The notes below the pieces were generated by a model. That model was not told where the DNA came from, did no database searches, and saw only the letters and a program-made list of their open reading frames with translations. Positions 4,096-21,726 of a stretch of 21,726 nucleotides of DNA are shown here, piece by piece. The stretch is from positions 1 to 21,726 of IMG/VR virus record IMGVR_UViG_3300028735_000038. One strand, written 5' to 3'. Source of the stretch: a virus. The position numbers and the translations under genes are program-made. How positions within the stretch are numbered: position 1 is the first letter of the stretch; every line of letters starts with the position of its first letter.

Positions 4096-4100
4096 CGTTG

Positions 4101-4108
4101 TATTTAGT
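4101..4108 (-). promoter_or_regulatory. Late-promoter-like octamer P7 (ACTAAATA), predicted leaderless start
   Basis: On the minus strand ACTAAATA is followed by CAACG and then the ATG of the fibre adaptor gene. If the octamer occupies -13 to -6 as in T4 late promoters, +1 is exactly the A of that ATG. No -35 element is visible. It is one of seven such motifs, all in gene junctions. Confidence 0.5.
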
Positions 4109-14637: not shown

Positions 14638-14659
14638 TGTGAAGGGGTCTCCTTTTGTC

Positions 14660-14667
14660 TATTTAGC
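14660..14667 (-). promoter_or_regulatory. Late-promoter-like octamer P6 (GCTAAATA) before tail tubular A
   Basis: With T4 late-promoter geometry +1 would be A at 14654, giving a 17-nt leader that starts with the Shine-Dalgarno AAGGAG. The ten bases TCGCTAAATA are shared with P5. No -35 box is visible. Read-through RNA could pair GGGGUUUCUU (14697 to 14688) with AAGGAGACCCC (14654 to 14644), hiding this site, while P6 transcripts would lack the upstream arm. Confidence 0.6.
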
Positions 14668-14687
14668 GAAGCTGCGGTTCAACCACC

Positions 14688-14713
14688 AAGAAACCCCAGT
14701 GTTTCCACTGGGG
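14688..14713 (-). terminator. Intrinsic terminator after capsid/decoration genes
   Basis: On the minus strand CCCCAGTG, a GAAA tetraloop and CACTGGGG form a perfect 8-bp stem followed by TTTCTT. GNRA loops favour stable RNA hairpins. It lies between the capsid/decoration pair and tail tubular A, the place of T7 T-phi. The plus strand lacks a T-run after the stem, so only minus orientation is supported. Confidence 0.75.
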
Positions 14714-14760
14714 CTCCTTGCGTAGTCATAAGAGGAGATGCCCGATGGTCTGGGCACTCG

Positions 14761-14768
14761 TATTTAGC
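14761..14768 (-). promoter_or_regulatory. Late-promoter-like octamer P5 (GCTAAATA) upstream of the terminator
   Basis: Expected +1 is near 14755 by T4 geometry. The first 20 nt of that RNA include TGCCC and GGGCA able to form a small hairpin (14739 to 14756), and the terminator ends it at about 14688. P5 would therefore mainly give an RNA of about 68 nt, or a read-through message for tail tubular A. No -35 box is seen. Confidence 0.45.
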
Positions 14769-16014: not shown

Positions 16015-16023
16015 TTAGAAATA

Positions 16024-16067
16024 CCTCCATAGGTTGCTGTAATGCTCTAGCATCACTGCTATGGAGG
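16024..16067 (-). promoter_or_regulatory. RBS-sequestering hairpin of the capsid gene
   Basis: On the minus strand CCTCCATAG (16067 to 16059) pairs perfectly with CTATGGAGG (16032 to 16024), which contains the capsid Shine-Dalgarno. Inside, GTGATGC and GCATTAC form a second 7-bp stem with one G-U pair and a TAGA loop. The same inner pair would be an A-C mismatch on the plus strand, which fits a structure acting in minus-strand RNA. Confidence 0.7.
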
Positions 16068-16075
16068 ATTCAGTG

Positions 16076-16113
16076 AAAAAACCACACCTCTAGCGTAGTG
16101 ATGCCAGAGGTGT
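16076..16113 (-). terminator. Intrinsic terminator between scaffold and capsid genes
   Basis: ACACCTCT and AGAGGTGT form an 8-bp stem on the minus strand, extended inside by G-U, G-C and C-G pairs to 11 bp around an 8-nt loop (ATCACTAC). It is followed by GG and TTTTTT. This is a textbook rho-independent terminator, placed upstream of the capsid gene, which would then depend on read-through or on conditional folding. Confidence 0.8.
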
Positions 16114-16172
16114 CTCTTCTTTGTTCAGGGCGGCAGTTGCCGGTATCCTTACTAAAGGAAAAGGCTCAAGTC
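16076..16172 (-). ncRNA. Candidate structured leader RNA / short RNA between P4 and the terminator
   Basis: If P4 starts RNA near 16172 and the terminator works, a 97-nt RNA results. It holds three hairpins: TCCTT-TAGT-AAGGA (16159 to 16146), CGGCA-AC-TGCCG (16142 to 16131) and the terminator. Its terminator loop GCATCACT (16104 to 16097) is the exact complement of AGTGATGC (16057 to 16050) in the capsid RBS hairpin. It may be a leader, a separate RNA, or both. There is no open frame with a ribosome binding site. Confidence 0.4.
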
Positions 16173-16177
16173 AGTGT

Positions 16178-16185
16178 TATTTATA
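16178..16185 (-). promoter_or_regulatory. Late-promoter-like octamer P4 (TATAAATA) before the capsid leader
   Basis: This copy is identical to the T4 late consensus TATAAATA. It lies two bases past the scaffold stop codon. Expected +1 is near 16172 (G). No -35 box is seen. Transcripts from here meet the terminator about 60 nt later. Confidence 0.6.
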
Positions 16186-16187
16186 CA

Positions 16188-17210: not shown

Positions 17211-17473
17211 TGTTGTTCTCCATTGCTGTGGTTTCCTTTGTTTTTGTTTCTACTCAAGTGCCGCATCAGCGAAATCAGTTCCAGTTGCGCCACTTGATAT
17301 AGTGCTGCCTCAAGGCTGGGCTGATTGCGTGACATCTTGAATCGTGCTGTGCGTTCCAAGTAGTCCAAAACCGCGTGCCCCAGGGGGTTGTCAAACACAG
17401 CACCAAACGTGTTTTCCACTTCCTCATCAGTGAGAGGTTTGGTGTATGTGCGAGTGCGGTCCATGCTTTTCAT
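17207..17473 (-). CDS. Small hypothetical phage protein between portal and scaffold genes
   Basis: An 88-aa protein. The motif FGAVFDNPLGHAVLDYLERT (residues 23 to 42) resembles the start of small Bbp19-like phage proteins, which have an (V)F..P.G..VL..L pattern and lie near portal genes in many podoviruses. A C-terminal basic, Asn-rich tail follows an amphipathic helix (QVAQLELISLMRHL). ATG at 17473 overlaps the upstream stop as ATGA. A second in-frame ATG at 17464 is possible. Its function is unknown and the family link is tentative. Confidence 0.7.
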   Translation of the reverse strand: MKSMDRTRTYTKPLTDEEVENTFGAVFDNPLGHAVLDYLERTARFKMSRNQPSLEAALYQVAQLELISLMRHLSRNKNKGNHSNGEQQ

Positions 17474-17727
17474 TTTGCCACTTTTCCGATTCTGTTGATG
17501 TACCAGCGGCTCACACCCAGTTCTCTACTGGCTTCCGCCAGTGATGCGTAGGTTTTACCCTCCACTTCTATGGGCATGCCGCGTTTGCTAGCTGGCTGCG
17601 CAAGGGCGTGCACTGCCATGCGATGTTTGTGTGATGTGGGGGATTTTTTGGGTTGCTGCTGTGCTTGTGTGAGTGCCTTGGTGAGTTCACCAAGAGCCAA
17701 TAGTAGATTGTTCAGTTGTTTTCTCAT
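17470..17727 (-). CDS. Small HTH/NUMOD-like DNA-binding protein in the late operon
   Basis: An 85-aa protein. Residues 1 to 25 form a Leu/Gln-rich helix, 26 to 50 are basic and likely disordered, and 51 to 85 hold EVEGKTYASLAEASRELGVS followed by RWYINRIGK. This G..Y.S..EA...LGVSR..I.RIG pattern is typical of NUMOD1-like or short helix-turn-helix modules that bind DNA. Its start at 17727 has GAAGGAAG 9 to 10 nt upstream and follows the late-promoter-like P3, so it is the first gene of the portal-to-scaffold block. It could be a regulator of the late genes or a remnant of a homing-nuclease module. Confidence 0.7.
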   Translation of the reverse strand: MRKQLNNLLLALGELTKALTQAQQQPKKSPTSHKHRMAVHALAQPASKRGMPIEVEGKTYASLAEASRELGVSRWYINRIGKVAK

Positions 17728-17764: not shown

Positions 17765-17772
17765 TATTTATA
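17765..17772 (-). promoter_or_regulatory. Late-promoter-like octamer P3 (TATAAATA) across the portal stop codon
   Basis: Identical to the T4 late consensus; the portal stop TAA is its central part. Expected +1 is near 17759, giving about 32 nt of leader. CAGTGT (17777 to 17772) and ACACTG (17749 to 17744) flank it as a 6-bp inverted repeat ending just before the Shine-Dalgarno. Confidence 0.58.
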
Positions 17773-19432: not shown

Positions 19433-19777
19433 TTAAAATAGGCGATGTGGATTGCCCACGCCCCACAAGTCGCGTGTGAGTGGCACACCTTTGCTGCCAG
19501 TTTCTGGGTCCAGGAACTGCTGATTGCCACCGCCCCGCACTGCTTCCGCTATGGCGCTCAAGCGAGCTTTTTCCTGTGCTTGGTTACTGGCTTGTGTGGC
19601 TGTGTCAGGAGAAGGCAGGGCTGGCAGTGATGAGTTGCCCTGCTTTACCGGGCTAAACAGTTGCTTGCCCAGACCCGCTGCGGCACCCACTGCCAGCAAT
19701 GGTGCTGCGATGTCACCAATGGGTTTTAGGAAACTGCTAGCGGAACTGAATAAGTTGCCGATGCTGGAGAAGCACAT
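19433..19777 (-). CDS. Small hydrophobic phage protein upstream of the portal gene
   Basis: A 114-aa protein starting MCFSSIGNLFSSASSFLKPI, with a hydrophobic Ala/Gly/Leu run at about 23 to 40 (IAAPLLAVGAAAGLGKQLF) and a charged C-terminal half. Small proteins with a Met-Cys start and an Ala/Gly-rich N-terminus are common among podovirus internal or ejection proteins. The start overlaps the preceding gene as TAATG, so translation is probably coupled. I do not know its function; a minor internal head protein or membrane-active protein are both possible. There is one hydrophobic segment only, so a classical multi-span holin is unlikely. Confidence 0.68.
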   Translation of the reverse strand: MCFSSIGNLFSSASSFLKPIGDIAAPLLAVGAAAGLGKQLFSPVKQGNSSLPALPSPDTATQASNQAQEKARLSAIAEAVRGGGNQQFLDPETGSKGVPLTRDLWGVGNPHRLF

Positions 19778-20883
19778 TAGATCGCCCTCTCACCAAGACC
19801 CGCTACCAGAGGCAAGCGGCTGAATGCTCGTCTCTGCTTGGGCTGCGTATTAAGGATTTCAGCGATGGCACGCTCCAAATCCTGTGATGCTTGACGGCTC
19901 CATTCAGGCGCACCTTCTTGAATGCGGAATGCGTTGTTGCTATTGGGTGTTGCGGCGAGTGCATTTTCCAAAGCCGCTGCGGCTGCGGCTGTGGGTTGTG
20001 ATGTGTTGTTGCGTGGCAATTGAGCATTGCCACTGTCACTTTGATTGTCTGTGCCAGGAGAGCGGGCTTCTGTGCCCACTCCTTCCTTATCTCCCAGTGC
20101 GGAAAGTGGTCCGCCAGTGGGATCAATGCCCATTGCTTGAAGGGCTGCCACTCCCAGCATTCCAAGACTAATGGGGTTGATTCCACCTGCTAAACTGATG
20201 CCGGTGCCCAGCAACGCGCCCACACCACGCATTGCTTCATTGGCTGTGAGTTTTCCGGCTGCGGCTCGGTTTGCTATATCCATTGCTTGTGCGAAGCCTC
20301 TGCCGATGGCACCGGTGCCTTCATCATAGCCCACACCACCGCTGCCAAATCCCGCACCATAGGCACCCATATTGCCGCTTTCACTGTGACCGGTGCCCGG
20401 TCCTGCGGGTCCAGTTCCAAAGCCAGGTGTGCCCGCTGCCATATCAGCCAGTGAGTTGGCCACAGCGGTGTCAAAGCTCACGCTCTCAATGCCACCGTAA
20501 CCGCCCCAGCCACCGCCATCATTGCTGCTGCCACCGAAACTGTCGGCTGCGGCACTTTCTGCGGCAGCACCAGCGGCAGCTGTGCCACCTTCTGATGCGT
20601 CTGCCCCCCAGAACTCCAAGAGCCCTGTAGTGGGGTTTACGCTGTTGTGTTTGTGTCCCACTAGATAGCGAGTGGGATTGTAGCCACCAGAAGTTAAGAG
20701 GGCTGCGATCACTGCTTGATTGTTCTCAACAACGTCACGGGGAAGAATAACTTCTCCCGTATCTACGTGAACCAGTGCGTTATCCCCTTTGCGTCCCTGT
20801 TGAGCAGCATAGGTAGCCACCAGTTGTGTTAGTGCTTGTAGCAGTTGTGATTCTTGAAGGTCAGGTGTTTTGTTCTTGGCCAT
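19777..20883 (-). CDS. Gly/Ala-rich phage protein with conserved N-terminal 'HVDTGEVILPRD' domain
   Basis: A 368-aa protein. Residues about 33 to 93 carry a pattern seen in many phages: GD.ALVHVDTGEVILPRD, then a helix (VIAALLTSGG), YNPTRYLVG and NSVNPTTGLLEFWG. The middle (about 95 to 200) is extremely Gly-, Ala- and Ser-rich; a hydrophobic helical part follows, with Gly-rich segments that may cross or disturb membranes (GALLGTGISLAGGI). Proteins with this domain are usually virion-associated but have no assigned reaction. The start at 20883 lies after a GGGGA Shine-Dalgarno buried in a 9-bp hairpin that also encloses late-promoter-like P2. Confidence 0.8.
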   Translation of the reverse strand: MAKNKTPDLQESQLLQALTQLVATYAAQQGRKGDNALVHVDTGEVILPRDVVENNQAVIAALLTSGGYNPTRYLVGHKHNSVNPTTGLLEFWGADASEGGTAAAGAAAESAAADSFGGSSNDGGGWGGYGGIESVSFDTAVANSLADMAAGTPGFGTGPAGPGTGHSESGNMGAYGAGFGSGGVGYDEGTGAIGRGFAQAMDIANRAAAGKLTANEAMRGVGALLGTGISLAGGINPISLGMLGVAALQAMGIDPTGGPLSALGDKEGVGTEARSPGTDNQSDSGNAQLPRNNTSQPTAAAAAALENALAATPNSNNAFRIQEGAPEWSRQASQDLERAIAEILNTQPKQRRAFSRLPLVAGLGERAI

Positions 20884-20891
20884 ATGTGATG

Positions 20892-20932
20892 ATCCCCGGG
20901 TTAATACCTGTATTTAGTATCCGCCCGGGGAT
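20892..20932 (-). promoter_or_regulatory. RBS-masking hairpin enclosing late-promoter-like P2
   Basis: ATCCCCGGG (20932 to 20924) and CCCGGGGAT (20900 to 20892) form a perfect 9-bp stem on the minus strand, with an inner ATAC/GTAT pair. The 3' arm contains the Shine-Dalgarno of the 368-aa gene, 9 nt from its ATG. RNA read through from upstream would mask the site. RNA started at P2 would lack the 5' arm. No T-run follows, so it is not a terminator. Confidence 0.7.
20911..20918 (-). promoter_or_regulatory. Late-promoter-like octamer P2 (ACTAAATA) inside a hairpin
   Basis: Expected +1 by T4 geometry is A at 20905, inside the loop side of the 20892 to 20932 hairpin and 22 nt before the 368-aa start codon. 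No -35 element is visible. Confidence 0.58.
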
Positions 20933-20961: not shown

Positions 20962-21219
20962 TCAGTGCTTGTGGTTGGGGATGCCTTGGCTCCACCAGCA
21001 TTGTGAGTTGCGAAGTGCTTCCTCAAAGGAGACCTCGTCCACAGCAGGAGCGCGCCAGCCCGCGCCTTCTGGTCCGTGACCAGCGATGATTGCGTCGTTG
21101 ATTGACAGCGTTGACTGCCATTGCGCGGCAGCGGGTAGAGTGCCTTCCGTGGCAGCTTGAGCAGTGGAGATTGCCACCACTGACAGTAGAGTGATGATGA
21201 TGTTTAGTAGAGTGTCCAT
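20962..21219 (-). CDS. Small exported protein with Sec-type signal sequence
   Basis: An 85-aa protein starting MDTLLNIIITLLSVVAISTA, with a probable cleavage after AQA (about residue 23), leaving about 62 residues with two adjacent Trp and one Cys (CWW) near the end. I chose ATG 21219 because AAGGAAGGA ends 9 nt upstream; a longer GTG start at 21255 has no site. The n-region has no basic residue, which is unusual for a Sec signal. It is the first gene after the sigma70 promoter, so it may be expressed before the rest. Lysis, envelope or superinfection roles are possible; none is shown by sequence. Confidence 0.68.
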   Translation of the reverse strand: MDTLLNIIITLLSVVAISTAQAATEGTLPAAAQWQSTLSINDAIIAGHGPEGAGWRAPAVDEVSFEEALRNSQCWWSQGIPNHKH

Positions 21220-21262: not shown

Positions 21263-21275
21263 CTTCAATACTTGT

Positions 21276-21303
21276 AGTATATGACTTTTTAGTTGTAAGT
21301 CAA
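21276..21303 (-). promoter_or_regulatory. Sigma70-type promoter (TTGACT-16-TATACT)
   Basis: TTGACT (21303 to 21298) and TATACT (21281 to 21276) each match the consensus at five of six bases with a 16-bp spacer. It points left toward the exported-protein gene, starting near 21269. It is the only convincing host-type promoter found and probably serves early or constitutive expression of the first gene(s). Confidence 0.75.
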
Positions 21304-21318
21304 CTGAATAGTCGCAGT

Positions 21319-21326
21319 TATTTAGC
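21319..21326 (-). promoter_or_regulatory. Late-promoter-like octamer P1 (GCTAAATA), outermost copy
   Basis: Same motif as P5 and P6, about 100 nt before the first gene and just upstream of the sigma70 promoter. Expected start near 21313. This arranges an early and a late type signal in tandem ahead of the whole cluster. Confidence 0.5.
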
Positions 21327-21350
21327 AAGTTGTTGGTGTTCACTGATGTG

Positions 21351-21560
21351 GTTTAACCCTTGATGACTCGTGTTTCAAAGGTGGTGTGTGAGTGGTGTTC
21401 AATCCTTGATCACTGGTGTGATGGAATTCTTGATGGCAGGTGTTTGAAGGTTGGTGTGTGATTCAACCCTTGATCACTGGTGTTTGAAGGTTGGTGTGTA
21501 ATTCAACCCTTGATCATTGGTGTTTGAAGGGTGGTGTGTAATTCAACCCTTGATGACTCG
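21351..21560. repeat. Tandem array of about 40-bp repeats
   Basis: Units align at 21351, 21421, 21461, 21501 and a half-unit at 21541; a shortened 30-bp copy lies at 21391. The core is TTCAACCCTTGATCACTGGT followed by GTTTGAAGGTTGGTGTGT. The three central units differ at only a few positions; the outer ones are more diverged and share GATGACTCG. Each unit holds the palindrome TGATCA or a variant. The region is non-coding and lies before all promoters, suiting an iteron-like origin, a protein-binding enhancer or an end/packaging site. Confidence 0.8.
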
Positions 21561-21581
21561 TGCGTATGTCTGGGGCGCACG
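21559..21581. other. GC-rich hairpin between the two repeat arrays
   Basis: CGTGCG and CGCACG form a 6-bp inverted repeat with an 11-nt spacer. The following 40 bases include T7 followed by GGGGCACCCC. No T-run follows either stem in the right sense, so neither is a standard terminator. Role unknown. Confidence 0.4.
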
Positions 21582-21620
21582 CGAAATTTTGGTCACGCAA
21601 CGATTTTTTTGGGGCACCCC

Positions 21621-21726
21621 ATTACTGAACCGCAACCACAGCCCCCCCACTACCACCACCACCATTACTGAACCGCAACCACAGCCCCCCCACTACCACC
21701 ACCACCATCACTGAACCGCAACCACT
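21621..21726. repeat. 43-bp C-rich tandem repeat reaching the window edge
   Basis: Two full units (21621 to 21663, 21664 to 21706) and 20 bases of a third. Each unit starts ATTACTGAACCGCAACCACA and continues with seven C and CACTACCACCACCACC. The two full copies look identical; the third changes one base of the start (ATCACTG) and one near the cut end. The period is not a multiple of three, so it is unlikely to code. The strand asymmetry (C-rich on plus) is strong. Confidence 0.85.

Follow-up and report, generated by a model that had tools for sequence, protein, structure and literature searches.

A promoter-like motif enclosed by a ribosome-site hairpin in a T7-like podovirus: a candidate switch set by transcript origin

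Can one short hairpin decide, according to where an RNA begins, whether a phage gene is translated? The question is raised by the leader of a 368-aa open reading frame (ORF; 19777-20883, minus strand) in a virus known solely from metagenome DNA, and we have approached it in the window, by which we mean the whole 21,726-base IMG/VR entry IMGVR_UViG_3300028735_000038. In all likelihood this record is part of a phage genome: it carries the structural genes and lacks most of the non-structural ones. The minus strand carries all the genes of note, which encode portal, scaffold, major capsid, tail tubular proteins A and B, internal virion-like proteins and tail fibres. Virion genes of T4 type were not found; instead, the PHROG matches of the portal (phrog_332), capsid (phrog_3437) and tail proteins (phrog_376/394), and those of the fibres too, are to T7-like podoviruses, and judged by its structural genes the phage is one of these and not T4-like. 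By portal the closest isolates, at 22-25% identity, are Pelagibacter phages, Alteromonas phage ZP6 and the VP2/phiVC8 Vibrio phages. Searches of viral and genome contigs with the portal, 885-aa and capsid proteins singly, with portal and tail-B profiles, with a hairpin-plus-motif pattern and a 40-bp repeat pattern, and by a genome-contig scan gave no close relative, only relatives at ~20-33% identity (the collections may omit records very near the window). Towards the end of the record, 40-bp direct repeats (TTGAATTACACACCAACCTTCAAACACC...), which have no match in viral contigs, form an array at 21337-21562 upstream of an 85-aa ORF and are perhaps an origin or packaging site; the contig end itself (21619-21726) is a 43-bp tandem repeat (CCATTACTGAACCGCAACCACAGCCCCCCCACTACCACCACCA), probably the point where assembly stopped.

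What, then, does the leader contain? In the minimum free energy (MFE) fold, a 5' arm, AUCCCCGGG (20924-20932, minus strand), pairs with a 3' arm, CCCGGGGAU (20892-20900), through nine perfect pairs, and both sequence and fold bear out the preliminary description, which had placed a perfect 9-bp stem here, enclosing a promoter-like octamer called P2 (CTAAATAC, 20910-20917). To that description we can add an inner 6-pair helix, GAUACU/GGUAUU, with a 7-nt loop, AAAUACA (20903-20921), and it is across this loop and inner helix that the octamer lies. The Shine-Dalgarno (SD) of the 368-aa gene does sit in the 3' arm, as had been claimed: the GGGG there (20897-20894) is the best anti-SD pairing of this ORF, at -5.7 kcal/mol, which makes it a moderate SD and not a strong one. 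Promoter-like motif, mask and ribosome site are thus interlocked within 41 nt. The 368-aa ORF is the first past the hairpin, with the 114-aa and portal genes following it, and shares an N-terminal domain with other phages; no lysozyme or endonuclease was among any match found. The hairpin has an MFE of -23.5 kcal/mol, compared with -15.9 +/- 3.0 in shuffles (z = -2.57), and Rfam gave no match anywhere in the window. We rejected an intrinsic terminator as the reading of the hairpin, since no U-run follows the stem on either strand and it is absent from the full-stem terminator scan.

It is fair to ask whether such a stem is just chance pairing, or a trivial structure that regulates nothing. Counted across the window, perfect stems of at least 9 bp with loops up to 40 are not rare as such, two being present when 3.55 are expected per shuffled window of equal length. 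In the 78-nt leader of the 368-aa ORF, however, a stem with nine perfect pairs appeared in just 4 of 3000 shuffles (~0.1%), and it coincides there with an SD and with a motif that is itself non-random, so that we consider chance a very unlikely explanation. Both of the perfect 9-bp stems in the window cover an SD, the second being that of the major capsid gene.

The computed folds hold the SD in an RNA helix on long transcripts. With RNA 5' ends at 21269, 21000, 20950 or 20933, opening the SD of the 368-aa ORF is predicted to cost 14-16 kcal/mol, or 14.4-14.7 for the ends from 21269 to 20950, and the cost drops to 3.3-3.7 kcal/mol once the 5' end enters the 5' arm (3.4 at the proposed start, 20905), a predicted difference of ~11 kcal/mol between the long and short RNA states. 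No other of the 19 gene starts has an SD as occluded as this one (14.8 kcal/mol, at the 99.87th percentile for the window); that of the capsid gene comes next at 9.7, and the window median is 4.0. The earlier proposal that RNA begun at P2 would lack the 5' arm agrees with this geometry, given a start placed 6-8 nt after the motif (20903-20905, minus strand) on the spacing of T4 late promoters and of phage phiEco32 (the latter from PMC8948821), and such RNA is predicted to take SD access from ~15 to 3.5 kcal/mol.

Where might the long RNA come from? Upstream of the hairpin lies the 85-aa ORF (20962-21219, minus strand, ATG at 21219), with a signal-peptide-like start, and its stop falls 29 nt ahead of the 5' arm, so that a ribosome terminating there should not unfold the stem. 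Ahead of this ORF, a consensus scan gives a sigma70-like candidate, TTGACT-16-TATACT (21276-21303, minus strand, 10/12), from which a long, masked RNA would be made. The upstream sigma70 promoter invoked in the preliminary description is accordingly matched by a site, although such sites are at chance frequency, five having passed the scan threshold where 4.9 are expected from shuffles. We regard a long-RNA promoter at 21303-21276 as plausible.

The octamer deserves closer attention, and its core, TAAATA, is a real and highly significant intergenic motif. Seven copies occur in 21.7 kb (at 21324, 20916, 17770, 16183, 14766, 14665 and 4106), all of them intergenic and on the coding strand, with none on the opposite strand and none elsewhere; shuffled intergenic DNA holds 0.25 on average and never reached seven in 2000 trials, and the commonest 6-mer of any kind stayed at six or fewer in each of 1000 trials. 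CTAAATA is found at five of the seven, and an exact TATAAATA, the consensus of T4 late promoters, at two; the copy in the hairpin reads ACTAAATA. The other copies, all on the minus strand, are CTAAATAA at 21318-21325; TATAAATA at 17765-17772, overlapping the portal stop codon upstream of an 85-codon ORF (17470-17727); TATAAATA again at 16178-16185, in the scaffold-capsid gap at about -171 to the capsid ATG; CTAAATAC at 14760-14767; CTAAATAG at 14659-14666, which is 29 nt ahead of the ATG of tail tubular protein A and weakly nested in an SD-pairing stem; and CTAAATAC at 4100-4107, between the SD and ATG of a tail-fibre-like ORF. This last copy is awkward for an ordinary promoter, as a start 6 nt past it would be the A of the ATG and the RNA would presumably be leaderless.

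We infer TAAATA to be a promoter core from its intergenic, sense-strand enrichment and from the presence of TATAAATA in the gap in which many relatives carry sigma70-like sites. In many distant relatives, the scaffold-capsid gap has sigma70-like sites with -10 elements at -117 to -180; their scores overlap those of shuffles, but the -10 elements gather at preferred positions, mostly between -142 and -157. No sigma70 candidate was found in the same gap of this phage, where TATAAATA stands at -171. The promoter would not be of a familiar host type: the consensus scan gave no host sigma70 promoter at the motif, with a TTGACA-like -35 lying 16-18 nt from a TATAAT-like -10, CTAAAT is without the key A at position 2 of a TATAAT-like -10, and by eye the seven contexts share no -35. 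A promoter for a T7-type polymerase is also unlikely, given a core of 7-8 bp shared (by eye) where ~20 bp is needed, and given that the single-subunit RNA polymerase domain (PF00940) is absent in 33 relatives, in a search that found the T7 control, an indirect argument since the phage's own genome is incomplete. Nor do the relatives share the motif, an idea we dropped: TAAATA leads the non-coding 6-mers of this phage and heads the list in no relative that was examined.

An RNA element could, of course, work the same switch with no promoter at all. If UAAAUA motifs marked AU-rich, unpaired stretches of RNA for processing, a cut in the hairpin loop would remove the 5' arm and free the SD; the motif does lie partly in the single-stranded loop AAAUACA, and copies that are all intergenic and in sense are expected of an RNA element as much as of a promoter. 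But the contexts at the other sites are not consistently loops, and the TATAAATA copies resemble bacterial and phage -10 elements, one of them standing where relatives have promoters, for which reasons we think RNA cutting unlikely and continue with the promoter reading.

Does the nesting itself strengthen that reading? It had been argued that seeing promoter, hairpin and ribosome site interlocked supports the promoter independently of how often the octamer occurs, and here we find little to lean on. Pairing that encloses the motif is at chance in total over the seven sites (p = 0.57) and is significant singly at the 368-aa ORF site only (p = 0.03, uncorrected), so a rule by which the motif is always nested in an SD-masking stem was rejected; no motif, moreover, lies within the hairpin that masks the SD of the capsid gene. 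In this second hairpin (16024-16067, minus strand), CCUCCAUAG and CUAUGGAGG form a 9-bp stem over a GGAGG SD. Tail tubular protein A, which looked like a second nested case, proved a weak switch. In a short fold, its motif copy lies inside the SD-pairing stem, but another hairpin captures that stem's 5' arm in longer RNA, leaving a weak change (4-5 versus 2.4 kcal/mol); the leader concerned (14638-14755, minus strand) holds two competing hairpins, CCCCAGTGGAAACACTGGGG against the stem that pairs the AAGGAG SD, with the motif copy between the arms. No comparable leader hairpin was seen ahead of the genes for distant homologues of the 368-aa protein.

That SD occlusion recurs in this phage, in one case with no motif, speaks for a plainer possibility, namely that the hairpin is a translational damper which reduces output of the 368-aa protein whichever transcript carries the gene, any enclosed promoter or signal being incidental. 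Against this, 15 kcal/mol far exceeds mild damping, and RNA begun at the motif, should that be a promoter, is by position bound to lack the 5' arm; a simple damper therefore seems to us improbable.

The capsid leaders have features of their own. In the window, the leader at 16015-16187 (minus strand) is strongly structured (z = -5.39) and runs from TATAAATA through a terminator-like hairpin with a U-run (16113-16084) to the SD-masking stem; the two hairpins could refold against each other, since GCATCACT in the terminator is the complement of AGTGATGC in the masking stem-loop. In distant podovirus relatives, a structured leader RNA of ~145 nt precedes the capsid gene, with 24 predicted pairs, 12 of them changed on both sides (L010 6790-6936, L014 7183-7329, L070 8716-8862, L045 5274-5431 and others); the model of this RNA also matches L070, L045, L064, L021, L018, L055 and L044, and finds no match in the window. 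Against Rfam, L014 and L018 gave no hit that reached the gathering score. The capsid gene of phiVC8 and ZP6 (L006 5460-5500, L005 5740-5790) is preceded by a sigma70-like -10 enclosed in an inverted repeat; the repeat covers no SD, and in phiVC8 it is annotated as a terminator.

These last two phages bear on a further alternative, in which the inverted repeat of our locus acts as DNA, binding a dimeric phage regulator on either side of a promoter-like motif, with the RNA hairpin a by-product. A 16-nt imperfect dyad is indeed centred on the motif, the arms are about three helical turns apart, and phiVC8 and ZP6 (read by eye) offer a precedent for a promoter element in an inverted repeat with no SD masked. 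The arms, however, recur nowhere else in the part of the window that was searched, so the operator would be a single one, and the exact overlap with the SD would be left unexplained; we rate a DNA operator as distinctly unlikely, a little less so than chance.

How far, then, does the comparison with known systems carry? Translation control by this hairpin design is established for T4 gene e, as set out in PMC3014915, and T4-type leaders include those of gene e (lysozyme), I-TevI, segB, soc, 49 and Aeh1 mobE, according to PMC3014915 and PMC2988022. The preliminary description had likened our locus to T4 genes e, soc and 49. For gene e the likeness is close: the SD is in the 3' arm, the motif is placed so that RNA begun at it would be without the 5' arm, the late promoter is at -34 as is the motif in the window, and the same calculation gives a large predicted change in SD access, from 7.2 kcal/mol in long RNA to 2.9 from the late promoter, the change in the window being larger (~15 to 3.5). 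For soc, the same calculation gave no strong masking, and so our T4 comparison rests on gene e. The differences are that the octamer of the window is (A)CTAAATAC and not the T4 consensus, that the phage is a podovirus with T7-like structural genes, and that its switch is predicted to be the stronger.

Two other systems are instructive. In Bacillus subtilis, sigG transcripts that read through from the operon upstream carry a large hairpin that blocks translation, and this hairpin cannot form when sigG is transcribed from its own promoter, although this is a bacterial sporulation gene with a two-element promoter and a hairpin of 20+ pairs (PMC5942855). The podovirus phiEco32 has gp36-dependent single-element promoters, served by a phage sigma, with no -35 and with starts 6-8 bp downstream; by eye our motif shows no shared -35 either, as holds for T4 late promoters, but the phiEco32 consensus is tAATGTAtA where the window has TAAATA, and no masking hairpin is reported in the available text (PMC8948821). 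By anatomy and calculation, the hairpin leader is predicted to work like that of T4 gene e and like the read-through block of sigG.

The best reading of hairpin and motif is, we think, a switch of the T4 gene e kind governed by transcript origin, and we lean narrowly towards it, with promoter activity, start, timing and effect on translation all argued from the modelled structure and the motif. RNA from upstream, begun at the sigma70-like site at 21303 or at the motif copy at 21325, would read through the 85-aa ORF and hold both arms, and would fold into the hairpin, concealing the 368-aa gene's SD. The TAAATA-type motif would form the core of a phage promoter with a single element, which host RNA polymerase, together with a phage specificity factor, would probably use later in infection, and RNA starting 6-8 nt past it (~20905-20903) would be without the 5' arm, leaving the ribosome site open for the 368-aa protein to be made. 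A protein with sigma region 2 was not found in the relatives sampled. More tentatively, and with rather less than even conviction, we suggest that a switch of the T4 lysozyme type arose independently in a T7-like podovirus through an undescribed class of single-element TAAATA promoter, whose other group members apparently use sigma70-like promoters.

If this is true, the timing of protein synthesis by transcript origin would not be a peculiarity of T4, and unrelated phages would have reached such a design independently, here in a compact version of 41 nt. A further implication would be a promoter class, and hence a specificity factor, not yet described in this large group of podoviruses.
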